Shown: positions 13,533-44,503 of the stretch, piece after piece | Layout of the letters: each line of letters opens with the position of its first letter | How positions within the stretch are numbered: the stretch's first letter is position 1 | From: Candidatus Celaenobacter antarcticus | GTDB taxonomy: Bacteria > Cloacimonadota > Cloacimonadia > JGIOTU-2 | Length of the DNA: 44,503 nt | Reading direction: 5' to 3' | Assembly: GCA_030765865.1 (NCBI GenBank) | Contig: JAVCDK010000156.1 | Location: 1 to 44,503 of the forward strand | Notes under the pieces: model-generated | The model's database searches: none | Told to the model about the DNA's origin: nothing | Seen by the model: the letters and a program-made list of their open reading frames with translations, nothing else | Made by a program: the position numbers and the translations under genes

Positions 13533-16500
13533 TTGAAATTCACCCTGTAGAGGAGATCTATGCCCGTATTTCCCTCCTGATCTGCCTGTCCCTGCAAATA
13601 GAAGTTATCGGTGAGCTTATAATCAAGCTCGATGCTTTGCTCATTCAGATAACCGATACGAGTGGAATAGGTTACTTTCATGCGTTTTAAAAGCTGCTTG
13701 GATGCAACAAGCTGCGGTCCCCATGAATCGCCAAAATCAAAGAGGTTCCCTTCGATCGTCACATCATCGAGGTCAAAAATATGAGCCATCTGACCCGCAA
13801 CAAATCCGGAGATCTTCTGGCTGGAATACTGCTCCGCGCGCTCAAGAAGTATATCTTTCAAAGAGGTGTTATATTTATCAGGTGTTTGGGAAAATATCTG
13901 CTCTCGTGTTGTTCCGAAAGTAAGTAATGAAAGTATGTTCGCTTCATCGAGTGCTGGAATGGACTGTAGTGATATTGCGGCTTTATCTGCAGGTCCTGTC
14001 ATTGCAAAAATAATATGGTATGGTTCAGCATCGGGTTGTGAGTAATTTTTTATATCGGTCTCTGCCTGTATATCCAGAATGGGATTGATAACATTAGGAT
14101 CAGCAAAATCAAGGATTCCGCGTGTGATCGTAAATTTTCTATCAAGATAAATAATGTAGCCCTCGGAAATCTCGAGACGACCTGTAAGATTTGGTTGAGC
14201 CAAGGTGCCGATCACGCTGATGTCAGATCTCATTTGGATACGGGCAATATTGTTATCTATCCAGATATCTTTGCTGTCAGTTATACGTATATTAAGCTTG
14301 GTCTGCATCATAAGCTGGGATGGCTTACGAAATAGCCGTGGTTTGGTCATGGAATCAAGAATTTTGGAAATCTGGATATCCTCGAGATATTTTGTTTCTC
14401 CCATAACTATGATTCCATCAATAAGATAGCCATTTTTTTGCCGAGAATAATCCAGTGTGCAGCTTGGTATATTTAACTTGTATTTTTTTTGCTCGTTCAA
14501 CACAATACCCTCTGCTTCGAAATGCAAAGCGATATCCTTTATATCACCATCGTCGTAATCGACATGCCCTGAACTCTTTATCGAACCCTTACCGAACTTA
14601 CATTGGAATTCTTGCAGAGCAATCCGCTCATCTGTTGCGGAAATATCGAGAGTACAGTCCGAGAAAGGAACTGGAACATCCGCTGGATGGATACCGAAAT
14701 TATCAGCTTTAATCCATCCTCTGAACTTTGGATTACTCATCGTTCCAAGTGTGTTCACTGACGCATTAACTGAGCCCTGTGCATTCATTATAGCAGGAGT
14801 TATAGTTTCTAAAAATGCAATATCAAAGTCATTAAGCGAAATGTGAATATCCATATCTTCCTGCTGAAAAATGCCTTTCACGATCACTGCCTGCGTTCCG
14901 TTTATCGACAATGCAATATCCGGAGAGAACGAGCTCCAGTCGGACTCTGAAATGCTGCCAGTAAGAGAAAAGGGTTTGCCTTCATAAAGACCGGTGAACT
15001 TATTTATATTCATAGTGCTGTCCGAGAAGACCAAGAGTGCTTCAAGATTTTCAATCGGCGATTTATGCTTATCCAGTTGAAGAAAACCATTCTCTATTCC
15101 AAATGAACCATTTATCACAGGGGAAGCAACTGATCCACTGATCTGTACTGTAGATGTAAGTGTTCCCATAACCTGCACTGCATCGAGAAATTCTTGAGTG
15201 AAATTTGCCAGTTTCACGTCCGAAAGTGATATCTCCCCACGAAGCGCACTGTGCGGGTTGACCGCACCCCCCCCTTTGCTTTCATCCAGTCCAATCTTCC
15301 CCCGAATACGTATCTCATTTTTGAAGAGTTGAACTGTTCCATTGCTAAGAATTATCTCTGAAGGAGTAAGATTTCCCTGAATAGATATTTTATCTATGAA
15401 AAAGTCTTTATATGCGGGTTTATCTATCGTGAGAAATATCGTGCCTGTGGGCTTTCTCGTCATACCTTCAAATGATACATTACCGGAAACACTCCCCTGA
15501 ATCCCAGCTAATGAATCTGAAAAAGCAGCCAGCATATCAAGCGAGAGTACTTTCAAATCTGCCTTCAAAGAAATATCTTGTGCAATCGAGAAACTGCTCT
15601 CTATTGAACCTAAATGATCTTTTGTATTTTTTTCATTCTTTTTGAAATTTACATATACATTTCCTGTGCGATCTGATAATGAGAAGTTGCCTTGAGCTTC
15701 ACACCGGATTTTTTCCGTATCAATATGCAGCGTTTTTATTGAAATATCAGAATTCTCTGCAGTGCATTCAAGCACAAGAGAGGGTACAGAAAAGTTCTGA
15801 TATTTGACACTATCAGCGTGCAATGAGACAAAGCCGGAGAGATTTTCCAGATTGCCGGTTAACGATCCTTGATATTGGACTCGTCCAAGCACTTCTTCGT
15901 CCAGTAAAGTAGTTGTGAGTAAAGCAAGAGACGTAATCCTGCCGGTGAAAGAGCTGCTCTTTATAAATAATGAATTGTCTGCATACTGGATTTCTGCAAA
16001 CAGGGAGTCGGCAGGGAAATTCATGTAGGACAGTCCGCTCCCCTTAACTTTTACGTGAATTTCAGGACTGGACAACTTGCCTGAAAAATTTGCATCAGCA
16101 TATAACTTTCCCTTTGTTCCAAGTAGGTTGAAAAGTCCGGCAATATATTCGATATTATTTATATGAACCGAAGCAGAGCCGTCTATTTTTGAATCATGAA
16201 GAACGAATTCACTTTCAATATATGATGAATCCTGCACAACATGAAGTGCTGCATCTCCAGTTTTATATGAAAATATACAGTCAATCGGATTGATGCTTTT
16301 CTCTTCGTACATTATCTTATGGAGCTGCATTTCCCCGGAAAATTGTGAGGATAGAATTGAAGTTATCGTGCCTGACGAGCTTACAGTACCGGTCAAAAAA
16401 CCTTTGTATGGAGAATCATTTCCATAAAGATACTCCCATAATTGTGTATAATCTATGTTTGAAATGTTAAGATCGACATGATAGGATTCTGTGCTATCCA

Positions 16501-18833: not shown

Positions 18834-20354
18834 TTATGTCTGTTTTTGAATAAAATCTTTTTTGTCAAGCAGCCACCTGCCCATTCTTTTTATCTCTCTT
18901 ATCCTGCCTGCTTTATAATTTTCATGCACACTATTTGTATAGAGGAATTTCCTCAAGGAATTCATTCCTAATTTGGGGAGCTCATTTAATATTAAACTCA
19001 AAAAATACAAAGGATAATGAAATTTTATGAGATTATCCTTCACTGAATGCAGATCGTTATAATAATTATACATTTTACTTTTGAGGAGGTTCAAATCTTC
19101 GGAAGAGAGATAGTGGGTCCGTAAATTCGCATGTGAGAGATCATAAAAAGAAAAATCATCAGCATTTGTTAGCAATCCTTCTTTGATGATCTTCTCGCGC
19201 ACTCTCGTTTTCAGAAATGGTGTGAGCAGAATGAAAAGAGGCACATCAATGCTGTGTTGTTTGGCAAAATCAAAATGATCCCAAATGGTTTTTCTATCGT
19301 CTTCGGGATTACCAAGAATAAATCCTCCGACCACTATGAGCTTATGTTTATGTAATAACTCTATTGCCATACTCGTCTGGTCAAGCACACGTTTGTCTTT
19401 TGAGAGAAACTGCACATTTGCTTTTTTTATGTTTTCAATTCCAAGAAAAACAATCTTGAAACCCGACTTAGCCATGAGTTTTATCAATTTCGCATCTCGA
19501 GCCACACCTGCCACGCTTGCCTGAATTGTATAATGGATATTCTGCAATCCGTTTTTGAGGATCTGTTCGCATAATTCTTCAAGATGAGCGGAATCCACAA
19601 AAATGTTGTCATCGATAAAAAATATCGCTTTTACTCCGAATTGTAAAGCTTGTCGTATGTCTTCGATGATTCTATCAACAGAATATTTACGAAAAATTCT
19701 TCCATACATCTGAGGCATACAGCAGAAATCACATTGCATGGTACAACCGCGTGATGCCTCAACCACATCGGCTCTTCTTCCAAAGATTGAGCAGTGCTTC
19801 GTAATTCTTGAAGTTCGATCCGGAAGTTTTATACTCTCAAGATCGAGAACGGGCTGTCTGGTATTATGAACAAAGTGTTCCTGCTTCTTAAAAGAAATAT
19901 TTGGGATTTCGGAAATATCTTCGTTACTGCTTAGTGCTTTTATTAGTCTGTTAAACGCAACTTCTCCCTCACCTCGAACGAGATAATCAATGTATTTTTT
20001 TTCTTTGGATTTTGAGATAAGCTCATAAGCCAGCGTAGGATGGTATCCCCCGAATACTGTGATAATATTTTGATCATATTGCTTGATAAGTTCAGCAATT
20101 TTAACTGCTGTCTCATACTGGAAACTCATGCAGGTCAATCCGACAACATGCGGATGAAATTTCTTTAATAACCTGATAATGTAGTTTTTCAGATTGTGCT
20201 GAACCATGAGCAGGTCAGCGATCACGACTTTCTCGACAAATGCCGAATCCAGGTTGCCGGATAGTGAAGACAATCCCAGTGAAGGAACGCGCATTCCCTT
20301 ATAAAATCCCAAAGTGTAGTTGGGCATAGAGAAAAGCAATATTTTCTTTTTCAT
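18834..20354 (-). CDS. B12-binding-domain radical SAM protein
   Basis: 506 residues from MKKKILLF; an earlier ATG would add 26 unlikely residues, and TAGGAT lies upstream of the chosen start. The N-terminal half is a cobalamin-binding-like domain (HPHVVGLTCMSFQYETAVKI; TVFGGYHPTLAYE; DYLVRGEGEVAF). The radical SAM cluster motif is RGCTMQCDFC (Cys-x3-Cys-x2-Cys), followed by IFFIDDNIF and ASVAGVARD. A GxIxG-like VVGGFILGNPED segment follows. Such proteins carry out methylations or rearrangements, often on lipids or secondary metabolites. The substrate is unknown. It is the first gene of the minus-strand run down to the TamA-like gene and faces the Mut7-C gene across an 79-base divergent promoter region. 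Confidence 0.88.
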   Translation of the reverse strand: MKKKILLFSMPNYTLGFYKGMRVPSLGLSSLSGNLDSAFVEKVVIADLLMVQHNLKNYIIRLLKKFHPHVVGLTCMSFQYETAVKIAELIKQYDQNIITVFGGYHPTLAYELISKSKEKKYIDYLVRGEGEVAFNRLIKALSSNEDISEIPNISFKKQEHFVHNTRQPVLDLESIKLPDRTSRITKHCSIFGRRADVVEASRGCTMQCDFCCMPQMYGRIFRKYSVDRIIEDIRQALQFGVKAIFFIDDNIFVDSAHLEELCEQILKNGLQNIHYTIQASVAGVARDAKLIKLMAKSGFKIVFLGIENIKKANVQFLSKDKRVLDQTSMAIELLHKHKLIVVGGFILGNPEDDRKTIWDHFDFAKQHSIDVPLFILLTPFLKTRVREKIIKEGLLTNADDFSFYDLSHANLRTHYLSSEDLNLLKSKMYNYYNDLHSVKDNLIKFHYPLYFLSLILNELPKLGMNSLRKFLYTNSVHENYKAGRIREIKRMGRWLLDKKDFIQKQT

Positions 20355-31624: not shown

Positions 31625-32230
31625 TTATGCCTTTTCAATATCAGATAGAACCTGAATAATATTTTCCCCTGCCTGCTGGCAAGTTTTTCCAAAACTTAAA
31701 AATCCGTGATCTTTCATGATAAGAATACTGTCATTTTCCCCGAGCGCATCACATACGGATTCCATCAGCTCAAGGGTTCCATAAGGATACCATTTTTTTG
31801 TAGATTTCAATCCCAATTGTGAGCAGTGTGCGAGTAAATGCCGGTTATGACCGTGAAAAATTATTTGAATATCACTCCGCTTCTGATAAATACTGTTATG
31901 CAGCATTGTTTCAGATGACGGCTCCTCAGTACCGGTCACATCGATCTGTCTCGAAGGAATATCAACATTGATGATCTCAACAAAATCTTTTTCCGCGAGT
32001 GCTCCAAGGTTTGAACCTGCTGCAGTGATAATAAACCTGCCTCCGATCCGCGCACTGAGATTACCGGCAGAGCTTGTGATAAGAGGATTTACCGGGTGTG
32101 GATATGTAGGAATGCAACCCAATTCCGACAACTTCTTCCCCCACTTAATGAGCTCTTGCTGAATTGGGAAATCGATTATCTTTTTTTCTGAAAATCGTAC
32201 GCTGAACTTTATTCCCTGATATTGTTCCAT
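31625..32230 (-). CDS. class II aldolase/adducin-family protein (MtnB- or Ald2-like)
   Basis: 201 residues. The class II aldolase zinc site is present: IIFHGHNRH (two His), KDHGFLSFG (third His) and the acidic catalytic residue in SSETMLH. Other signatures are SSAGNLSARIGGRFIITAAGS. Its ATG overlaps the mtnA stop by one base (TAATG), so the two are coupled. After MtnA makes the ribulose phosphate, this enzyme would either cleave it (DHAP shunt, oxygen-independent) or dehydrate it (MtnB of methionine salvage). No acireductone dioxygenase or other later salvage gene is visible here, and the organism is probably anaerobic, so the aldolase reaction is favoured. Confidence 0.85.
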   Translation of the reverse strand: MEQYQGIKFSVRFSEKKIIDFPIQQELIKWGKKLSELGCIPTYPHPVNPLITSSAGNLSARIGGRFIITAAGSNLGALAEKDFVEIINVDIPSRQIDVTGTEEPSSETMLHNSIYQKRSDIQIIFHGHNRHLLAHCSQLGLKSTKKWYPYGTLELMESVCDALGENDSILIMKDHGFLSFGKTCQQAGENIIQVLSDIEKA

Positions 32231-33243
32231 TATTTTAAAGTATGAATATCTTCCGGTTTATGAATACCCTTTTCCGTTATGATGCCTGTGATATATTTTG
32301 CAGGTGTGACATCAAATGCCGGATTCAATGCATTACTTTCTGTATTAGCGATGTGTTTATTTCCAATTTTTTTTACTTCATCAGAAGAGCGTTCTTCAAT
32401 TGGAACATCTGCTCCGCATCTGCATGAAAAATCTATTGTTGAGCATGGGGCAACAACATAAAAAGGAATTTCGTTTTCTTTTGCGAGAACTGCCTTTTCG
32501 TATGTACCGATCTTGTTTGCCACATCACCGTTACACGCGATCCTGTCTGCTCCGACAAATACGATATCGATCTTTTTTTGCTGCATATAATATCCTGCAG
32601 CATTATCTGCGATGATCGCATGAGGTATGCCTGCATACTGCAATTCCCAAGCAGTAAGCTGAGCGCCCTGCAAACGGGGTCGGGTTTCATCCGCATACAC
32701 AAAAATATCTTTGCCCTGTTCATGAGCTACATATATCGGGGCAAGTGCACTTCCCCATCCCTGGATCGCCAGCTTTCCTGCATTGCAATGCGTGAGTATT
32801 TGGAAACCGTCCTTTACGAGTTCAGCTCCAAGTTCACCCATAATTCGAGAGTGTTTCTCATCTTCACGCAGAATATCATCAGCTGTTTTGAATGCTGTCT
32901 CTGTTGGATCTGATGACTTGGCAGCAGCATAAAAAACTCTGTTTGTCGCATAAAAAAGATTCTGCGCTGTTGGGCGTGATGATTCGATAAAGAGTTTTGC
33001 TTTTCCCAAATCCTTTTTAGTTGTACATTCCGCAAACGCCTGCGCCATAGCATAGCCAGCAGCCACCCCGATCGTTCCTGCTCCTCGCAGAAGCATATGC
33101 TGAATCGCATTAACAGTCGATAAATATGATCGAAGTTCAACAATTTTCGAAGTAAAGGGCAACTTTGTCTGGTCTATTATAAAAACTGTGTTTCCTTCTC
33201 GCCAGATCGCTTTCCATTCTTTATCTTTGATGATCTTTTTCAT
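32230..33243 (-). CDS. mtnA: S-methyl-5-thioribose-1-phosphate isomerase
   Basis: 337 residues. Signature segments are RGAGTIGVAAGYAMA, ILTHCNAGKLAIQGWGSALAPI (catalytic Cys), VYADETRPRLQGAQLTAWEL and VFVGADRIACNGDVANKIGTY (catalytic Asp), plus CRCGADVPIEERS. It converts 5-methylthioribose-1-phosphate, or 5-deoxyribose-1-phosphate, to the ribulose form in the cytoplasm, salvaging the waste of SAM-dependent and radical SAM reactions. GGGTGGGTAAGCT precedes the ATG. The family also includes ribose-1,5-bisphosphate and eIF2B-like members, but the motifs and the adjacent aldolase fit MtnA. Confidence 0.92.
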   Translation of the reverse strand: MKKIIKDKEWKAIWREGNTVFIIDQTKLPFTSKIVELRSYLSTVNAIQHMLLRGAGTIGVAAGYAMAQAFAECTTKKDLGKAKLFIESSRPTAQNLFYATNRVFYAAAKSSDPTETAFKTADDILREDEKHSRIMGELGAELVKDGFQILTHCNAGKLAIQGWGSALAPIYVAHEQGKDIFVYADETRPRLQGAQLTAWELQYAGIPHAIIADNAAGYYMQQKKIDIVFVGADRIACNGDVANKIGTYEKAVLAKENEIPFYVVAPCSTIDFSCRCGADVPIEERSSDEVKKIGNKHIANTESNALNPAFDVTPAKYITGIITEKGIHKPEDIHTLK

Positions 33244-35156: not shown

Positions 35157-35906
35157 TTACATACCAATAAATTTAAATATTCCAAATAATTTCATGCAAG
35201 CAACGATCACCGCAATCGTTATCACGATTTTGACGAAGCCAGCCCCCTTTTTCACGGCAGCATGCACGCCGATAAAAGCACCGAGTATGTTCCCGGCAGC
35301 AAGTAAAAGACCATAATGCCATATTATCTTATCAGAAGCCGCGAACACAATCACAGCAAAGAATGTATAACACATTACGATAAAAACTTTTACAGCATTA
35401 GCTCGAATGAGATTGAAATCTTCAACCAGGTTGAGCGTAGCAAGTAAAATAAACCCAACTCCCACCTGTATGAATCCACCATACAATCCTACACAGAAAA
35501 AAATGAGAACTTCAAGCCATTTGGGTAATGATCTCCTTGCCGTGTTCGCTTTTCTCTTCGGTTTGAAAATGAGCACTAAGATGAGAATGAGCATCATTCC
35601 AAGCAATTTATCAAATACTTTTGTGCTAATATCTACAGCGAACAAAGAACCAATTATCGCTCCGATAATTGCTGCGATGGTTATATGAATGACCGGTTTG
35701 ACTTCGAGCTCTTTATACTTCGCGAATCGGGCTGTACCAACGATATTCTGAAAAAGTATCGCAACACGATTTGTGGCATTTGCAATGGGCGAGGGCAATC
35801 CCAACAATATGAGAATCGGAAGCGTCAACGTTGATCCGCCACCTGCGAGGGTGTTCATAAAACCGGCTGCCACACCGGCAAGAAAAAGTATGATGTAAAG
35901 TAGCAT
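35157..35906 (-). CDS. TauE/SafE (TSUP) family transporter
   Basis: 249 residues, about eight membrane helices. The start GVAAGFMNTLAGGGSTLTLPILILLGLPSPIANATNRVAIL is the TSUP signature, with the second repeat in GLYGGFIQVGVGFILLATLNLVEDFNLIRANAVKVFIV. Members export sulfite, sulfoacetate or other organosulfur anions, or import them. The substrate cannot be told from sequence. It is the first gene of a three-gene run with two small membrane or exported proteins. A broken copy of its first 22 codons lies at 39089-39154. Confidence 0.92.
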   Translation of the reverse strand: MLLYIILFLAGVAAGFMNTLAGGGSTLTLPILILLGLPSPIANATNRVAILFQNIVGTARFAKYKELEVKPVIHITIAAIIGAIIGSLFAVDISTKVFDKLLGMMLILILVLIFKPKRKANTARRSLPKWLEVLIFFCVGLYGGFIQVGVGFILLATLNLVEDFNLIRANAVKVFIVMCYTFFAVIVFAASDKIIWHYGLLLAAGNILGAFIGVHAAVKKGAGFVKIVITIAVIVACMKLFGIFKFIGM

Positions 35907-36249
35907 ATATTATTCTCAACTAATGATGTTTGATATGTGAAAATTCTCCTCTCGCTGGCAAGCTTTTTATAAATTCATTGACAATATTATATCAAAATAA
36001 TAACCATCTGTTTAGTAAGTTTAGGTAAAATAAAAACTACACAGGGATGTGCGAAATGAAGAATGGATATAAGGATTTTATCGCACCTGTTGCAAATACA
36101 TAGTTAACCTTCGTCTTGGAAGAAACGGGAATTTGATAACGAGAACTTGAATTTATTTTTTAATTGAGCTTAAATAATACATAAATGGGCAATGGAAGTT
36201 GCGTAAGTAAAAAAACTTTATGTGATAAACCTTTATCGGAGAAAAAAAT
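35907..36249. other. intergenic region without a clear element
   Basis: No gene seen. TTGACA at 35978-35983 lacks a good -10 partner at the usual distance. ATTTGATAACGAGAACTTG near 36130 is a faint relative of the GGGAACGAGAA repeat. A ribosome-binding site (CGGAGAAAAAA) lies before the gene at 36250. The region separates the divergently transcribed TSUP and DUF1611 genes. Confidence 0.5.
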
Positions 36250-37320
36250 ATGAAAGCATTAGTATATTGTGAAGGTGAATTTGGGAAAATAGACGGTAAG
36301 GTTGCGAATGGGCTTGCCAGACATTCGGAAAAGTATCAGATCCTTGGAATTATTGATAGTACAAAAGCCGGTCTTGATGCTGGAGAATTTCTTGATGGAA
36401 TAAAAAATGGGATCCCGATATTCCGAAGTAGCGAAGATGCCATCGAGACCCTGGGCTTTGTTCCGGAATACTTCATCTATGGCATCGCAGCGATCACCGC
36501 ATTTCTTAACCATTATGATAGAGGGATAATCTTTGCAGCGATGAAACTGGGGATGAATATCATAAATGGTCTCCCGGAATTTTTTACTGAGGATCAAGAA
36601 TTTGTCCAAAAAGCACATGATTATGATGTCCAAATCTATGATATGAGAAAATCGCCGATGAGAAAGCATTTACATAATTTCTCCGGACGTATTCATAAGG
36701 TTACAATTCCCGTAATAACAGTGCTTGGAACAGATTGTGCAGTTGGCAAAAGAACAACTGCGGTAGAACTCGTTGAAGCATTGAAACAAGCAGGGCTGAA
36801 TGCTGCATTTGTTGCAACTGGTCAGACGGGCTTGCTACAGGGCGCAAAGTATGGCACAGTGGTGGATGTTTTAAGTTCGGGTTTTGCAAGTGGTGAGGTT
36901 GAAAATGCAATTCTAAATGCAAATAAAGGAGAGCGCCCTGATATTATTGTTGTTGAAGGTCAAGGTGCTTTGAGTCATCCGGCCTATACATCATCACACG
37001 CTATTGTCAGAGGCGCTGTGCCCGATGCGGTTATTCTGCAGCACCCGCCTAGAAGAAAGAATCATTGTGATTATCCCACCATACCCATGCCCACACTTGA
37101 AAGCGAGATCGAATTGATAGAAGTATTCTCAAAAACGAAGGTAATTGCCATTACAATCAACCATGAAGACATGACTGATCTTCAAGTAAAAGACACAATA
37201 GATGAGTATGAAGCCAAGTATAAATTGCCGACCACAGATGTTCTAAAATTTAGTTGTGATAAACTTGTCGAAACCTTATTCAAGTTGTTTCCGGAACTGC
37301 AAAAAGGAAAATCCATATAA
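36250..37320 (+). CDS. DUF1611 protein (DgcN-like, P-loop)
   Basis: 356 residues, the usual size. The N-terminal Rossmann-like domain runs to about 140 (ALVYCEGEFG, GIIDSTKAG). The C-terminal P-loop-type domain has VLGTDCAVGKRTTAVEL (about 156-172, Walker A-like), VATGQTGLLQGAKYG, VVEGQGALSHPAY and ILQHPPRRKNHCDYP. Some members (DgcN) have been reported as D-glutamate N-acetyltransferases in D-glutamate breakdown; others are found next to dipeptide epimerases. The stop overlaps the next start by one base (TAATG), so it is coupled to the racemase::VanX gene, which supports a role in D-amino acid handling. Confidence 0.88.
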   Translation: MKALVYCEGEFGKIDGKVANGLARHSEKYQILGIIDSTKAGLDAGEFLDGIKNGIPIFRSSEDAIETLGFVPEYFIYGIAAITAFLNHYDRGIIFAAMKLGMNIINGLPEFFTEDQEFVQKAHDYDVQIYDMRKSPMRKHLHNFSGRIHKVTIPVITVLGTDCAVGKRTTAVELVEALKQAGLNAAFVATGQTGLLQGAKYGTVVDVLSSGFASGEVENAILNANKGERPDIIVVEGQGALSHPAYTSSHAIVRGAVPDAVILQHPPRRKNHCDYPTIPMPTLESEIELIEVFSKTKVIAITINHEDMTDLQVKDTIDEYEAKYKLPTTDVLKFSCDKLVETLFKLFPELQKGKSI

Positions 37321-39059
37321 TGTTAACGCCAAGAATTGAAATGAACCTTGAAAAAATTGCCCATAACGCTAAAACATTAAAGGACTTATATAGTTCAAAA
37401 GGCATTGATGTTATCGGGGTGACAAAGGTTGTATGCGGAAATCCCTATATCGCCAATGTTTTAGTGAAAAGTGGAATAAATATCCTTGCAGATTCAAGGA
37501 TAGAAAATATCAGGAAGATGCGTAACGCCAGTGTGCAGGCACAGTTTCTCCTCCTAAGAACTCCCTGCTTAAGCCAAACCGAAACCGTGGTGAAATATGC
37601 TGATATGAGTCTTAACACCGAGCTTGCTGTTATCAAAAGACTCTCGAAATTTGCCGTTGATCGTGATCGTTCACATAAAATTATATTAATGGTTGAATTG
37701 GGAGATTTGAGAGAAGGACTGATGCCATCGGATTTGGATGACACTGTTAAGCAGGTATTAGAGCTTGAAAACATTGAGCTTATTGGAATCGGAACAAACC
37801 TGGCATGTTTTGGAGGCGTCAAACCCGATGATGAAAAAATGGGATGTTTGACCTCAATTGCTATAGATATTGAAGACAAATTCGGACTAAAATTAGAAAT
37901 CGTTTCTGGCGGCAACTCGGCAAATTATGATTGGTTCACCTCCACAAAGGATGTCGGAAGGGTCAATAACCTGAGGTTAGGCGAATCAATATATTTGGGA
38001 TGTGAAACCCTCAACAGAAAACCCATCCCCGGGCTGTACACGGATTCGTTTACACTGGTATCAGAAGTTATTGAATCAAAAATAAAGCCGTCTGTGCCCT
38101 ATGGAGTAATTTGCCAGAATGCATTTGGAAATGTTCATGAGTTTAAGGATCGTGGCTCCATCCAACGGGCTATTCTGGGCGTCGGCTTGCAGGATGTTCT
38201 GGTGTCCGGACTTTCTCCCAGAATCGATATCGAGATCCTTGGAGCAAGCAGCGACCATATCATCGTTGATACAAAGGATATTGATGTAAACGTAGGAGAC
38301 GAATTAGAGTTTGACCTGAATTACGGTGCCTTGCTTTCCGCGATGACCTCTCCATATGTAAATAAAGTATCAAGTGACCGAGTGAATGCTCATGAATATT
38401 GCGAAAAGGTTGAACAAAAATACCGCCGGCATTTACAACTTCTGCCAACAATTTCAATTAAAGAAAATAATTCTCCATTAATCAGTCTAAAAGAATCAGG
38501 GTTTAATTTAATATTTGAACCATCAATTAAAAAAGACTACAAATATATAGTTAGAGAAGCCGTTTTTGATAAAGTCGGACGGATAAGCAAACGATTGGAC
38601 GGGGAAAACAAAACATTAATAATCCGCTCTGTATGGAGATCTTTTGAACATCAACGTCTTTTATGGGAAGATAGAGTTGATTCTTTGAAGAAAAAATATC
38701 CAAAAAGACAAATGGCGGAAATTGAAGAACTCGTCTCATATTTTATTGCACCCCCAAGTAAATCCATGCATTCGACGGGTGGGGCTGTGGATGCTCTAAT
38801 ATATGATTTGAAAAATGATTGCGTTATGCGTTTTGGAACAAATGATGGACTAAAAATCAACCTTAATGATAAATGTTACCCGTATCATCCTTATATCACC
38901 CCTGAAGCGAAAAAGAATCGGAAATTACTAATCGGTCTCTTTGAAGAAGAAGATTTTGTTGTCGATATAAAAGAGTACTGGCATTTTGATTATGGAAATA
39001 GTGCGTGGGCTATAGAAAAAGGGAAAGACCACGCCATATATGGCATCATTGAAGCATGA
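37320..39059 (+). CDS. fusion: PLP racemase (Orr/alanine-racemase-like) + VanX-type D-Ala-D-Ala dipeptidase
   Basis: 579 residues. Residues 1 to about 370 match the fold-type III PLP-dependent alanine/ornithine racemase family: VIGVTKVVCGNPYIA holds the PLP lysine (Lys36), with LADSRIENIRK, MVELGDLREG, GTNLACFGG, IVSGGNSANYDW and NNLRLGESIYLG. Residues about 390-579 match M15D zinc dipeptidases (VanX/DdpX): SMHSTGGAVD (near 481, zinc His and Asp) and EYWHFDYGN (near 552, catalytic Glu and zinc His), with YKYIVREAV and IRSVWRSFEHQ before them. Normally these are separate proteins. There is no signal peptide, so it is cytoplasmic. With the coupled DUF1611 gene it suggests breakdown of D-Ala-D-Ala or other D-amino acid peptides and racemisation of a product. 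Confidence 0.88.
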   Translation: MLTPRIEMNLEKIAHNAKTLKDLYSSKGIDVIGVTKVVCGNPYIANVLVKSGINILADSRIENIRKMRNASVQAQFLLLRTPCLSQTETVVKYADMSLNTELAVIKRLSKFAVDRDRSHKIILMVELGDLREGLMPSDLDDTVKQVLELENIELIGIGTNLACFGGVKPDDEKMGCLTSIAIDIEDKFGLKLEIVSGGNSANYDWFTSTKDVGRVNNLRLGESIYLGCETLNRKPIPGLYTDSFTLVSEVIESKIKPSVPYGVICQNAFGNVHEFKDRGSIQRAILGVGLQDVLVSGLSPRIDIEILGASSDHIIVDTKDIDVNVGDELEFDLNYGALLSAMTSPYVNKVSSDRVNAHEYCEKVEQKYRRHLQLLPTISIKENNSPLISLKESGFNLIFEPSIKKDYKYIVREAVFDKVGRISKRLDGENKTLIIRSVWRSFEHQRLLWEDRVDSLKKKYPKRQMAEIEELVSYFIAPPSKSMHSTGGAVDALIYDLKNDCVMRFGTNDGLKINLNDKCYPYHPYITPEAKKNRKLLIGLFEEEDFVVDIKEYWHFDYGNSAWAIEKGKDHAIYGIIEA

Positions 39060-39088: not shown

Positions 39089-39154
39089 CCCTGCAAGCGT
39101 GTTCATAAAACCGGCTGACACACCGGCAAAAAAAAGTATGAGATAAAGTATCAT
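39089..39154 (-). pseudogene. 5' fragment of a TSUP transporter gene
   Basis: Reads MILYLILFFAGVSAGFMNTL then AG, matching the first 22 residues of the intact TSUP protein (MLLYIILFLAGVAAGFMNTL then AG), after which homology stops abruptly. The DNA is clearly related to 35841-35906 with several base changes, so it is an older copy. It lies 30 bases after the racemase::VanX stop, placing the DUF1611/fusion pair between a whole TSUP gene and this remnant. Confidence 0.85.
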
Positions 39155-39167
39155 AATTTTTAAACTC

Positions 39168-39450: not shown

Positions 39451-40176
39451 ATGCTAAACATTTTAAACGAAATTGATAAACATGTTGCAAAAGCTGTATC
39501 GTATTATTGGACAACTCGAAAAAGCCAAACAGACAAACAGAAAAGACGGGGAGTAACAGATGCTGGTTCACGAAGCGCCGTTACCGGTGGCGCTCAAATG
39601 GACGGCTTCATTGATCTTTTTAAAAAACTGATCAAAGATACTGGGATTGATAGTAAATATATCTTTGAGAAAAAGGCACTTGAATTGCCGGGTTTTTTCA
39701 GACCGACTAAAGAGTGGGATTTACTCGTTGTTAAAGACAACAAGCTTATAGCTGCTATAGAAGCAAAATCGCAAGTTGGACCATCGTTTGGAAACAATTT
39801 CAATAACAGAACAGAAGAAGCTATGGGGAGTGCTCTCGATTTATGGACTGCTTTTAGAGAGGGAGCTTTTAATAAAGGGATCCAACCTTTCCTAGGTTAT
39901 TTTTTCATGCTTGAAGATTGTGGTGCATCGAATCGACCGGTAAAAGTTCGAGAGCCGCACTTTAAGGTATTTCCCGAATTTGTGGATGCTTCATATATGA
40001 AACGATATGGATTGTTCTGTAGAAAATTGATCCTCGAACGCCATTATACTTCCACAGCATTTATTACATCAACACGCATTAGTGGTGTGAATGGTAGTTA
40101 TAAGGAACCTGCAATGGATTTATCACTTAAGCAATTTGCACAAATTCTTATTTCACATGTTGGTGCTCACGTATGA
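39451..40176 (+). CDS. PaeR7I/XhoI-family type II restriction endonuclease
   Basis: 241 residues, normal for this family (isoschizomers cut CTCGAG). The PD-(D/E)xK site is TKEWDLLVVKDNKLIAAIEAKSQ, with Asp90, Glu104 and Lys106, followed by GPSFGNNFNNRTEEAMGSALDLWTAFREGAF, a strongly conserved block. RRGVTDAGSRSAVTGGAQMDGF at the N-terminal side is also family-typical. It overlaps the methyltransferase start by 4 bases (ATGA). CTCGAG specificity is inferred from the family. CTCGAG is not obviously avoided in this window (at least nine sites by eye). Confidence 0.9.
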   Translation: MLNILNEIDKHVAKAVSYYWTTRKSQTDKQKRRGVTDAGSRSAVTGGAQMDGFIDLFKKLIKDTGIDSKYIFEKKALELPGFFRPTKEWDLLVVKDNKLIAAIEAKSQVGPSFGNNFNNRTEEAMGSALDLWTAFREGAFNKGIQPFLGYFFMLEDCGASNRPVKVREPHFKVFPEFVDASYMKRYGLFCRKLILERHYTSTAFITSTRISGVNGSYKEPAMDLSLKQFAQILISHVGAHV

Positions 40177-41108
40177 TCAATAAAAAACTCAGCACAAAAC
40201 ACAGATTAATAAACGGGGATGCGAGAGATTTATCTTTCTTAGAAGACGAATCCATTCATTTAGTTGTTACCTCCCCACCATATTGGAATCTGAAACGCTA
40301 TAATGAACATCCTGATCAATTAGGACATATTAATGATTATGAATCCTTTATAAAAGAACTCGATAGGGTGTGGCACGAAATTTTTCGTGTACTCGTTCAA
40401 GGAGGAAGATTAGTGTGCGTTGTGGGTGATGTATGCGTTTCGAGACGTGAATTCGGACGCCATCTTGTTTTTCCCCTTCATTCGGATATCTGTGTTTCAT
40501 GTCGAAAAATTGGCTTCGACAATCTCAATCCTATTATCTGGTATAAAATCGCAAATGCAAAGTTTGAAGTTGAAAATGGTTCAAAATTTTTAGGAAAACC
40601 TTATGAACCTAATGCTATAATTAAAAACGATATAGAGTTTATTTTAATGCAGCGAAAACCGGGCGGTTACCGTAAGCCCACAGAACTTCAAAGAGAATTG
40701 AGCAAGATAGATAAGAAAGATTTTAACGCTTGGTTCAAACAAATATGGAATATTCCCGGCGCTTCGACAAAGAAGCATCCGGCACCTTTCCCATTTGAAC
40801 TCGCATCCCGTCTTGTAAGAATGTTTTCATTCCAGGGTGATACGGTGTTAGATCCATTCTGTGGCACAGGCACAACAATGATAGCTTCCCTAAAATCCGG
40901 CAGAAACAGCATAGGATTAGACATTGATCCTGCATATTGTCGTATGGCAGGAAAACTACTAAAAAAGGAAAGCAGCGATCTCTTTTTCAACACAGAATTG
41001 GTCTTTGAAAATATATCTATAGACAAAGCAAGTAACATAAAAATACTGGGAAACCAGACTCTCGCTGAAACTAAATCAGTTAAAAACGGGATCAGTAGGC
41101 ATAGATAA
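40173..41108 (+). CDS. beta-class DNA methyltransferase (SPPY), R-M partner
   Basis: 311 residues. Catalytic motif IV is TSPPYWNLKRY (SPPY at 34-37) and the SAM-binding motif I is VLDPFCGTGTTMIASLKSGRNSIGLDIDP near 225. Motif IV before motif I defines the beta class. SPPY is usual for N4-cytosine and some N6-adenine enzymes. The known PaeR7I and XhoI methyltransferases are, as I recall, gamma-class NPPY N6-adenine enzymes, so this is an unusual partner. Overlap with the endonuclease gene shows they form one system that would protect host DNA. Confidence 0.92.
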   Translation: MINKKLSTKHRLINGDARDLSFLEDESIHLVVTSPPYWNLKRYNEHPDQLGHINDYESFIKELDRVWHEIFRVLVQGGRLVCVVGDVCVSRREFGRHLVFPLHSDICVSCRKIGFDNLNPIIWYKIANAKFEVENGSKFLGKPYEPNAIIKNDIEFILMQRKPGGYRKPTELQRELSKIDKKDFNAWFKQIWNIPGASTKKHPAPFPFELASRLVRMFSFQGDTVLDPFCGTGTTMIASLKSGRNSIGLDIDPAYCRMAGKLLKKESSDLFFNTELVFENISIDKASNIKILGNQTLAETKSVKNGISRHR

Positions 41109-41220
41109 TTATATAATTTTGCTGGGAGCAGTCAGAGATGATTTATATAGATACGGATAAATAACGATATAAGTTTATCTTCACTCCTTTGATATGAACC
41201 ATAGTTAGGAGATTTTAAAA

Positions 41221-42117
41221 ATGAAGCTAAAAATTTTTATTGGATCATCTACTGAGGGTCTGGAATATGCGAAAGCTCTTCAGCAAAATCTAGACCATAC
41301 AATGCAAGTCGTTCTTTGGAACCAAGGTGTATTCGGTCCGGGAAGTGTAATATTAGAACAGATTGTTGAAATACTTAAAACTGTTGATTTCGCAGCTTTA
41401 GTGGTAACTCCTGATGATTTAATTCAATACAGAAATAGTACACAGGCTGCACCTCGTGATAATGTATTGATTGAGTTAGGATTATGTATTGGAGCACTTG
41501 GTAGAGAACGAAGCTTTATCGTTTATGATCGGTCTTCGGACATTAAACTACCATCAGATCTTGCTGGTATTACACCTGCGACTTTTGAACCTCATGATGA
41601 TGGTAATGCGCAAGCCGCTTTAGGTGCTGCATCAACGCAAATAGAAAACACAGCAATAAAGATTGGTGAAAGAACAAAACAAGGTATTGTTGGAATAATT
41701 GATGGAAATTCACAGTATCGTATTATTGCTGATCTTCTAGGTTATGTTGCTGATAATTACTTAATTCAGATGCTTTTATCAGATTCCTCTATAAAAAGAG
41801 AAACTGGGGGTTTTTTTAAAATACCTAAATATTGGTATGCTATTGACTTTTATGGAAGGATATCTGGTTGTGGACAATTTTCAGTCAACGACTTGTGTGA
41901 AAAGTTGTTTGAAGCTGATATTATTTGTCAAAATTTAGATTTTTATGTTAGTTTAACTACGAGAGGAAGAGATTTTTCCAAATGGTTAATTGATAATGGA
42001 TATAAAGCAGAAGCTTTTATGTCTCCCATTGGTGGTTGGGGTGAACTGAGTGAAATAAATATAATGGGCGTTAAGCATTTTTCAAAAGAGAATAAATATT
42101 ATTTAGAAGACGATTAA
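41221..42117 (+). CDS. TIR-like nucleotide-binding-domain protein (defence effector candidate)
   Basis: 298 residues with TAGGAG before the ATG. Residues 1-125 match the TIR-like domain family found in bacterial immune proteins such as Cap12/TIR-STING (PF10137): KIFIGSSTEGLEYAKALQQNL, VVLWNQGVFGPGSVILEQI, DFAALVVTPDDL, APRDNVLIELGLCIGALG, with Glu85 as the likely NAD-cleaving residue. The C-terminal half (about 160-298) is not a STING domain that I can recognise; it has alpha-beta character, with a helix-turn-like LTTRGRDFSKWLIDNGY. It lies 112 bases after the R-M genes, forming a small defence island. NAD depletion upon infection is inferred from the family. Confidence 0.82.
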   Translation: MKLKIFIGSSTEGLEYAKALQQNLDHTMQVVLWNQGVFGPGSVILEQIVEILKTVDFAALVVTPDDLIQYRNSTQAAPRDNVLIELGLCIGALGRERSFIVYDRSSDIKLPSDLAGITPATFEPHDDGNAQAALGAASTQIENTAIKIGERTKQGIVGIIDGNSQYRIIADLLGYVADNYLIQMLLSDSSIKRETGGFFKIPKYWYAIDFYGRISGCGQFSVNDLCEKLFEADIICQNLDFYVSLTTRGRDFSKWLIDNGYKAEAFMSPIGGWGELSEINIMGVKHFSKENKYYLEDD

Positions 42118-42270: not shown

Positions 42271-43629
42271 TCACACTTTTCTCACATACAGATTCGGCAT
42301 GATCCTGCATCCTGTCATGCTGGCGATCACATTCGAGGTGCCTGCGCGAGTATAAAGTCCGTGAAAGCGTCCGTTATACACAAATAATCCAGTAATATAT
42401 TTATACTCTTCCAAAATTGGCTTTTCATCTCTGAATGTTATACAAGGAATAGTCGGAGGTTCTATAAATTGCTGCACGAGATAGGAATCCTTCTTTTGTA
42501 TCGAGTCGATGATCCGCTCCCATTCCTCCTGCGAATGATCGATTCCAACAAAAACTCCCTTCGCTGCATACCTGTCCATCGGTTTGAGAATATAATCATC
42601 CTTTGAAGTACGCACCTGCATTTCTGTATCGGGATCGGAAAGTTCTTTTGTAAAAGGAATGTGCTGTTCGATGAATACCTGTTCTTCAGCACTTAAAAAT
42701 GAAGTCTTCGTTTTATCATGCAGAATGGAAAATATCCTCTTATTATGGATTACATGAGAGCGAAATGGTCCGACCATACAGACATTGCCATCTGCATACG
42801 CATCGAGCACATCGCCTACCTCAGCCGCTCTTTCGCACATTTCAAACGTCAGTGAGCGACGATAAATGAGATCGATGGGCGTATCGAGAAAATACAGTTT
42901 TTTATTTTTATATTTCAGATCGCGGGGATCGCAAATAACTGTTCTACATCCTCGCCGCATAAGCATTTGCTGGAAAACCTTGAACTCTTCGATCGTTGCC
43001 ACGCCTTCCCAATCCATGATCGCGATATTTGGTTTCGTAAGTAATGAGTTCGAGTACTCCGCATAACATCCAAGCAGTTCTTCTATCCACGGAAGGAACA
43101 ATTCAAAATAACTGATACGGTATTTCTTCTGGAGCACTTTCAATATCTGGGATGAAAGCACTGCTTTTTCAATTGGATTGGATTCATTCATACCGGAAGT
43201 GCCGTCTGTATTTAGTTCACAAAACATAAAGTCGTCATTGTAGGAATAGAATAGGTCAAAACGAGCAACAGGAAACGGCATTGCGTAGCCGGGATCGATT
43301 AGAATAAGCTCTTCCATCAAAGAAGGAAAATTAAAATATGAGCGAAACACGGGATTCTTCAGATATTCCTGTATCACTTTTTTTAAAATTGAGGAAAAGG
43401 TAGAAACAAGATTTTCGAATCTTTGTATATCGGTCGAATCGAAAAACATTGGCTGATAATGAAAATCAATTGGTTGTCCTTTGTAACGTGCTGTGGAATT
43501 TGCAACTGCTTCTTCTACGAGCTTGAAATCCTCATAATATTTTTTTGGATGCTTTAATATTTCATTGGAGAATTCTTTATAAATTGGTAAGATAGACTTC
43601 ATAGGATTGTTAAAATTTTCCTCTATCAT
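42271..43629 (-). CDS. glutathionylspermidine-synthase-like/permuted ATP-grasp ligase
   Basis: 452 residues. The C-terminal half has ATP-grasp features: DDYILKPMDRYAAKGVFVG, YLVQQFIEPPTIPC and GRFHGLYTRAGTSNVIAS. The N-terminal half includes PVARFDLFYSYNDDFMFCEL followed by NTDGTSGMNESNP, a Mg/acid-binding region seen in glutathionylspermidine synthase-like and circularly permuted ATP-grasp proteins. It probably joins a carboxylate to an amine in the cytoplasm. The gene follows a glutamate-cysteine-ligase-like gene by 39 bases, so it may act as the second ligase of a thiol pathway, replacing GshB. The ATG at 43629 has no strong ribosome-binding site. Confidence 0.75.
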   Translation of the reverse strand: MIEENFNNPMKSILPIYKEFSNEILKHPKKYYEDFKLVEEAVANSTARYKGQPIDFHYQPMFFDSTDIQRFENLVSTFSSILKKVIQEYLKNPVFRSYFNFPSLMEELILIDPGYAMPFPVARFDLFYSYNDDFMFCELNTDGTSGMNESNPIEKAVLSSQILKVLQKKYRISYFELFLPWIEELLGCYAEYSNSLLTKPNIAIMDWEGVATIEEFKVFQQMLMRRGCRTVICDPRDLKYKNKKLYFLDTPIDLIYRRSLTFEMCERAAEVGDVLDAYADGNVCMVGPFRSHVIHNKRIFSILHDKTKTSFLSAEEQVFIEQHIPFTKELSDPDTEMQVRTSKDDYILKPMDRYAAKGVFVGIDHSQEEWERIIDSIQKKDSYLVQQFIEPPTIPCITFRDEKPILEEYKYITGLFVYNGRFHGLYTRAGTSNVIASMTGCRIMPNLYVRKV

Positions 43630-43668: not shown

Positions 43669-44503
43669 TTAAGCGAAAATATTATTTATTATGCAATCTT
43701 TCAGAGCTTCTTTAAGTGGCACTTTTGCGTTTAATTTTTCATTGATAATTGTGACCGGATTCTTCCTGATCTCAACTAATCGATAAAGAGGTTCAAGATA
43801 TTTTTGCTCTTCTTCGATCAATCCTTCTTTTGCAAGATTCACAAATTTCAGGATCACTTCCATAATGTGCTTATCACAAGCCCTTGCTTTTAATCCTTTT
43901 TTTATTATGTCTTGCTGAAACGCCAGGATTTTTTTAAATTCAAAACATCCAGTCACTGTCTGATGTATAGTCTTAATATTTTTACAATCATACAGTAAAC
44001 CTTTAAGCAATGCAAGATATGCAAAGTTTAGTGGATATGGAATCGAATCTGCAGTACGGATCTCGATGAACTGTTTAGTGCGCACATCCGGGAAAAACAT
44101 CGTCAGCACCTGCTCGAGTTCCTTATCAGTGCATTCTTCAGGATCGAAGATCGCTTTAAACGGCTGGTCTTCGGTATTGCATAACTGCCCTTCCCGGGTA
44201 ATAAAGATCGGAGGTCGTTCAATAATGTATCGAGCATAAGTATCATAGCAGAAATCATCATCAAAGGCATGGGGAATAATGCCGCATCTGTCATCATCAC
44301 AATGCAGCCAGATTTTGGTTCGTAATGCATGTTTTTTATATCGCTGTCCTTCAAATATCGGGCTGTTGTCAGTCAGGATTGCCAGCAAAGGGGAAAGATA
44401 GCATGCAACTTGGAATTTCTTTATATAATCCTCTTCGTTCAGGTAATCAAGAGTAAGTTGAGTGGACGCAGTGCCTTTCATCATATTAAGCGCATATTTG
44501 TTC
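43669..44503 (-). CDS. glutamate-cysteine ligase-like (GCS2), 5' end outside window
   Basis: The reading frame is open to the window edge, so only the C-terminal 277 or so residues are seen. The bases just before the first ATG also code sensibly (NKYALN then MMKGTASTQ), matching the family's G-Y-A-L-x-M-M-x-x-T-x-S-x-Q segment; the true start lies upstream. Further marks are LSPLLAILTDNSPIFEGQ and FIEIRTADSIPYPLNFAYLALLKGL. GCS2/GshA enzymes join glutamate to cysteine using ATP, the first step toward glutathione. The adjacent ATP-grasp gene on the same strand suggests a two-step thiol pathway. Confidence 0.85.
   Translation of the reverse strand, partial: NKYALNMMKGTASTQLTLDYLNEEDYIKKFQVACYLSPLLAILTDNSPIFEGQRYKKHALRTKIWLHCDDDRCGIIPHAFDDDFCYDTYARYIIERPPIFITREGQLCNTEDQPFKAIFDPEECTDKELEQVLTMFFPDVRTKQFIEIRTADSIPYPLNFAYLALLKGLLYDCKNIKTIHQTVTGCFEFKKILAFQQDIIKKGLKARACDKHIMEVILKFVNLAKEGLIEEEQKYLEPLYRLVEIRKNPVTIINEKLNAKVPLKEALKDCIINNIFA

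Follow-up and report, generated by a model that had tools for sequence, protein, structure and literature searches.

A widespread gene module of DUF1611, racemase and M15 peptidase, with a racemase-peptidase fusion in Candidatus Celaenobacter antarcticus

The cassette and its surroundings

The stretch of DNA analysed, hereafter the window, comprises 44,503 nt of Candidatus Celaenobacter antarcticus. It contains a DUF1611 gene followed, on the same strand, by a gene encoding a racemase and an M15 peptidase in one protein. The last A of the DUF1611 stop codon TAA (37318-37320) is also the first base of the ATG of the fusion gene; this one-base overlap and the joining of the two enzymes had been described in the original prediction, with which the open reading frames, coordinates and Pfam matches all agree. 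The features of the region are as follows.

35157-35906, minus strand: TauE/SafE (TSUP) permease gene, divergent, a neighbour of the module here and not elsewhere
35842-35907, no strand assigned: first copy of a 66 bp direct repeat, at the start of the permease gene
35918-36106, plus strand: upstream element that includes a promoter-like TTGACA and recurs twice on contig C7 of this genome
36250-37320, plus strand: DUF1611 gene, 356 aa, with a Rossmann-like N domain and a P-loop C domain
37320-39059, plus strand: racemase-M15 fusion gene, 579 aa, a single chain
37320-38369, plus strand: Orr-type PLP racemase domain, residues 1-350, with the PLP lysine K36 at 37425-37427
38382-39056, plus strand: M15 (VanX-like) peptidase domain, residues 355-579, with conserved R440, H484, D491, E552 and H555
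39090-39155, no strand assigned: second copy of the 66 bp repeat (89%), a remnant of the permease start 3' of the fusion

The 66 bp repeats, both from the start of the TSUP permease gene, bracket the cassette, which suggests a past recombination or insertion. The permease itself was rejected as a partner of the module, as it is not recurrent beside other cassettes. The TTGACA-containing element is of a type, 130-190 bp long and with a possible leader ORF of 14-15 codons (MKNGYKD...), that lies between genes upstream of several unrelated modules in the same genome (35918-36106 in the window; 18880-19074 and 16040-16173 in locus L218); an Rfam search around the cassette gave no match. Further upstream, adjoining class II aldolase-like (31625-32230) and methylthioribose-1-phosphate isomerase-like (32230-33243) genes resemble what we take, from their translations, to be a methionine-salvage-type set. 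Directly 3' of the cassette, positions 39451-42117 contain genes for an XhoI-type restriction endonuclease (PF04555, E 3e-92), a protein resembling DNA methyltransferases and a nucleotide-binding/TIR-like protein; as contig C7 has other genes at this point, the region would seem to be hypervariable or concerned with defence. Contig C7 also carries a copy of the M15 end, and was considered as a second, duplicated cassette. This was rejected because two further stretches of the window, 42280-42593 and 44338-44503, also have matches on it, making a strain variant of this locus in a mixed MAG the likelier explanation.

The window belongs to a genome of Cloacimonadota, its prfA gene being 88-89% identical to those of four genomes of the same genus. 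Two loci, one in a same-genus genome (L004, genome G006) and one in Cloacimonadota (L044), are identical to the window. The closest relatives of the cassette lie in other phyla (Electryoneota, 88%; Zixibacteria, 84%), while a same-genus genome has a split version at 69-70%. Since relatives in other phyla are closer than the split version within the genus, the window cassette was probably acquired laterally, with the reservation that many of the genomes compared are MAGs.

Fusion and separation of racemase and peptidase

Pfam recognises both parts of the fusion chain, with Ala_racemase_N at residues 9-226 (E 1e-22) and Peptidase_M15 at 473-562 (E 2e-7), as well as VanY (E 4e-6). Pfam and NCBIfam together put the racemase fold in residues 1-350 and the peptidase at about 395-579. 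AlphaFold models the whole chain with a mean pLDDT of 93.6 and a pTM of 0.65, the relative placement of the domains being less certain. The search for other fusions and DUF1611 neighbours that had been proposed with the original prediction covered a single genome for each species and confirmed 104 relatives, 80 of them being retained. Among the 93 loci compared, racemase and M15 are fused in 29 and encoded by separate genes in 48, with no M15 recognised in the other 16. The fused loci include cultured Aquimarina isolates, in one reading frame. In nearly all of the split loci the two genes are adjacent on one strand, either overlapping (by ATGA or by 23-100 nt) or a few bases apart, and in nine they share a frame with one stop codon between them; at L075, the M15 gene lies nearby on the opposite strand.

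At least four changes between fused and split states are needed on the racemase tree, on which the fused groups are the clade of the window, with 10 loci spread over several phyla, Aquimarina, with 17, and L047 and L062, the last two being single cases from one assembly each. Racemase and M15 appear to have been fused about four separate times. Purifying selection on the DUF1611, racemase and M15 domains is clear: dN/dS relative to L033 is 0.13-0.16 in all three, and relative to L034 and L035 it is 0.08-0.12 in both domains of the fusion. The original prediction had allowed that a base error might have joined two separate genes. Such an error, or an assembly or frameshift artefact, is excluded by the 29 of 93 loci fused in frame, Aquimarina among them, by the repeated changes on the tree and by dN/dS values of about 0.1.

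No description of a racemase-dipeptidase fusion was found in the searched literature, in keeping with the earlier claim that no enzyme of this kind had been described, and searches on racemases with HflK, N-acetyl-D-ornithine and DUF1611 returned nothing on this system. The trio of DUF1611, racemase and M15 is a widespread D-amino-acid module, undescribed in that literature, whose parts come from known families.

The three protein families

Five residues of the M15 domain, H484, D491, E552, H555 and R440, do not vary across 22 members. They constitute the M15D signature, in which H-x6-D and H bind zinc and Glu and Arg complete the set, Glu as the base, and the alignment conserves the equivalents of VanX H116, D123, E181 and H184. 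Because the top structures in a full-length fold search were all of the racemase fold (type III PLP), the peptidase domain was modelled apart (mean pLDDT 93.7; pTM 0.89). With this structure prediction, a step suggested at the outset, VanX came out as the closest match among solved structures (E 1.2e-9; TM 0.66 on the target); VanY, VanXY and L,D-carboxypeptidases ranked behind it. The domain passes the 27-bit Pfam cut-off for PF01427; against the equivalogs NF033115 and NF007557 it scores 28.7 bits (cut-off 320) and 32.8 bits (cut-off 176), missing both. What stands of its original designation as an M15D dipeptidase is the fold and the catalytic residues, but it falls far below the VanX cut-off and has 16% identity to VanX; hence D-Ala-D-Ala specificity is only a guess. 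Like VanX and DdpX, the cassette M15 has no apparent signal peptide, positioned as it is after the racemase, but it is very divergent from them and forms the C-terminal part of a racemase. A stand-alone M15 relative in Legionella was set aside, having no D-amino-acid context.

The racemase domain matches the ornithine racemase (Orr) model NF040742 with 407.7 bits over positions 2-350 of 351, short of the cut-off of 480, and related plasmid genes are annotated as 'alanine/ornithine racemase family'. It shares with this family full-length homology, the catalytic lysine (K36, invariant in the aligned racemases) and family-specific invariant residues; it differs in scoring below the curated cut-off and in being fused to M15, and no ornithine-fermentation genes were recognised beside the cassette racemase. 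The Alr tyrosine motif GYADGY, present in the Alr of the same genome, is absent from the cassette and from every aligned Orr-type relative, which have GxQD, GxED or GxLD instead, so that of the lysine and tyrosine that mark alanine racemases the cassette enzyme has the lysine alone. The second catalytic base must therefore be another residue, and the statement that both active sites are intact holds for the PLP lysine and the M15 residues, but not for this tyrosine. The genome has two other, weakly similar genes of the alanine-racemase fold, a 395 aa Alr on contig C132 and a 661 aa open frame on C33, taken to be a putative MurF-Alr fusion; hence the cassette racemase is probably not the housekeeping enzyme.

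Genes of basic-amino-acid metabolism adjoin several relatives. An arginase gene (TIGR01229, 319 bits against a cut-off of 228) lies directly upstream of the DUF1611 and racemase pair at L081, and an NhaC/ArcD-like antiporter gene directly downstream of M15 at L066; elsewhere the neighbours are an Orn/Arg-decarboxylase-type gene (L154), a deiminase-type gene (L155) and an IucA/IucC siderophore synthetase gene (L152). A related Orr-type racemase (41%) in Roseateles sp. XES5 (L161, 8001-9788) is likewise joined to a C-terminal hydrolase fold in a basic-amino-acid operon, with a gene of equal length in the same operon in Shinella (L165, 8001-9788). Agmatinase, 5-guanidino-2-oxopentanoate decarboxylase and D-amino-acid dehydrogenase genes surround it, making a D-arginine catabolic operon likely. 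Unlike in the cassette, the C-terminal domain is of the arginase fold according to Pfam, and its identification as M15 was rejected; on our own reading its canonical metal motifs are apparently absent.

As the racemase is of the Orr type, ornithine or another basic amino acid would be a likelier substrate than Ala or Glu; ornithine is suggested by relatives of 36-41% identity and by single loci rather than by a repeated cassette neighbour. The original assignment to fold-type III PLP racemases stands, with Ala and Glu, two of the substrates it had put forward, less likely than basic ones given the 408 bits to NF040742. In the class of the window organism (L005-L029), many Orr-like racemases that lack DUF1611 have the gene of a small GNAT acetyltransferase as partner, apparently a second, unrelated and undescribed pairing with an acyltransferase-type protein.

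VanT, a fold-III racemase, and VanXY, an M15 dipeptidase, are partners in the vanC, vanE and vanG operons. This pairing, together with VanX having the fold closest to that of the M15 domain and a weak match of the racemase to the VanT-G catalytic subunit (NF033131, E 8e-7), raises the question of a similar remodelling of the cell wall, in which racemase and M15 would lower D-Ala-D-Ala and supply another D-residue, and DUF1611 would form the bond. We consider such a role very improbable. In the van operons the two activities are in separate proteins, with a serine racemase bound to the membrane and an ATP-grasp ligase encoded by the third gene; the third gene of the cassette is DUF1611, not a D-Ala-D-Ser ligase and not a known ligase family, and neither a mur gene nor a D-Ala-D-X (ATP-grasp) ligase gene was recognised as recurring beside it. 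Moreover, the racemase is Orr-type rather than VanT-type, and the scores fall well short of the VanX, VanXY and VanT cut-offs.

The product of 36250-37320 matches both DUF1611 domains in Pfam (N domain E 1e-17, C domain E 9e-68) and can be aligned with DgcN (7XRJ) and two proteins from structural genomics, all retaining the P-loop, GQTG and EGQG(xLxH); the motifs in common with DgcN are GTDCAVGKRTTA, ATGQTG and EGQGALSHPA. The family is not without a function, as its studied member, DgcN, is a D-glutamate N-acetyltransferase; no other function for DUF1611 was found in the searched literature. D-glutamate N-acetyltransferase (EC 2.3.1.312) is listed with N-acetyl-D-glutamate racemase (EC 5.1.1.25) (PMC11747546), and a second paper describes dgcN as key to a racemisation pathway that is irreversible (PMC12363236). 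Like the cassette, DgcN-DgcA combines a DUF1611 gene with an adjacent racemase gene in D-amino-acid chemistry, the two being side by side in the locus examined. Unlike DgcN-DgcA, the cassette has a PLP fold-III racemase and M15, no DgcA-like gene was recognised among its recurring neighbours, and its DUF1611 protein scores 152.7 bits against the DgcN model NF041892, where the cut-off is 480. DgcA has an enolase-superfamily epimerase fold, and DUF1611 pairs with a dipeptide epimerase in a haloarchaeon; the family is thus found with racemases of two unrelated folds. The cassette DUF1611 protein is likely to be a D-amino-acid acyltransferase, judging from these sequence relationships.

Proposed function, mobility and stress-gene context

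The reading we favour, tentatively and with somewhat less than even confidence, is that of a cytoplasmic module of three activities acting on D-ornithine chemistry or that of a similar basic amino acid. The zinc M15 domain would hydrolyse a small amide of a D-residue, most likely a dipeptide, as its fold, residues and repeated fusion suggest, and the freed residue would pass to the racemase of the same chain. This domain, from its family and context, would interconvert L- and D-ornithine on PLP at Lys36. DUF1611 would then use acetyl-CoA to N-acylate the D-enantiomer, in the manner of DgcN with D-Glu, and so pull the reversible racemisation one way, a proposal based on homology and on the pairing of DUF1611 with two racemase folds. 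Alternatively, the pathway might be entered from L-ornithine without a peptide step, the racemase producing the D form for DUF1611 to acylate. Since a PLP racemase cannot use an alpha-N-acylated amino acid, the order of steps would differ from that of DgcN-DgcA, and one activity may have a side role.

A more general salvage of D-amino acids and D-dipeptides, in which scavenged D,D-dipeptides would be split and their residues converted to L forms for catabolism irrespective of ornithine, would account for a cytoplasmic M15 and a racemase in one chain, and for the cassette being common in marine and sediment bacteria; D-amino acids form part of the refractory organic matter in such settings (PMC12363236). 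No peptide transporter was recognised as recurring beside the cassette, however, and both DUF1611 and the basic-amino-acid associations would be left unexplained, so this seems a distinctly unlikely account.

As M15 is missing from many DUF1611 and racemase pairs, it would not be essential to the core reaction. In Bacillota the pair occurs without M15, with a 4 bp overlap in most cases, and it is found on plasmids of Vibrio and of the roseobacters Phaeobacter, Ruegeria and Aliiroseovarius, with mobilizable and conjugative plasmids among its carriers. M15 joins it in Bacteroidota and in other, mostly uncultured phyla; hence DUF1611 and racemase are probably the older core and M15 a later addition. 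Where M15 is absent at L078, the racemase is followed by a hydrolase of the Amidohydro_3 family, which includes D-aminoacylases. On Vibrio plasmids (L159, L168, L169 and L170) the next gene after the pair carries the annotation GspS-beta pilotin lipoprotein and overlaps the racemase gene in three of them.

Stress genes surround many of the cassettes. Comparison of Bacteroidota cassette loci with control regions found SPFH in 24/49 against 0/37, small AraC in 42/49 against 0/37, GroES in 13/49 against 1/37 and MscS in 6/49 against 0/37, figures to be read with the 37 controls coming from two of the genomes only and the case loci being related (Flavobacteriaceae synteny), such that p-values overstate independence; the arrangement differs between genera. 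A cupin gene also flanks Bacteroidota cassettes. Amongst plasmids, HflC is present in 35 of 72,556 records overall and in 3 of the 8 with a cassette-type DUF1611; on a V. coralliilyticus plasmid, hflK directly follows DUF1611 with no racemase listed between, and GroEL/GroES genes are near the pair on two further records. The link of the cassette to stress-gene islands (HflKC, SPFH, GroES/GroEL) in Bacteroidota and Proteobacteria is real but unexplained. In the window, none of these neighbours is found beside the cassette. Such a context is not predicted by simple salvage, and the cell-wall salvage suggested in the original prediction becomes one of several options, as the neighbours in a number of phyla are stress genes and not cell-wall genes.

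The main rival to the ornithine-type module, and a likelier one than the Van-like role, is suggested by this context. The racemase and DUF1611 could make an inert N-acyl-D-amino acid, such as N-acetyl-D-ornithine, which would accumulate under heat, salt or membrane stress, with M15 degrading a related conjugate afterwards. The enrichment around Bacteroidota cassettes, the HflC and GroEL/GroES genes on plasmids and the carriage of the core pair by mobilizable and conjugative plasmids are consistent with this; the kinship of the case loci, the narrow source of the controls and the window itself speak against it, and the association may be only that of cargo on mobile islands. We regard it as rather unlikely. 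Unlikely also is the broader form, a horizontally moving stress-tolerance pathway in which racemase and DUF1611 would yield a protective N-acyl-D-amino acid (or a dipeptide with a D-residue) that M15 recycles.

DUF1611-type genes have been counted as dgcN, for D-glutamate degradation, in marine metagenomes including those of Bacteroidetes and Marinisomatia (PMC12363236). As the cassette shows, a DUF1611 branch common in such groups has another partner and probably another substrate, so such counts may mislead. The repeated fusion directly couples a racemase to a cytoplasmic enzyme of the D,D-dipeptidase type, a combination open to testing, and the link with HflKC, SPFH and GroES/GroEL suggests that D-amino acids have a part in stress that is as yet unstudied.
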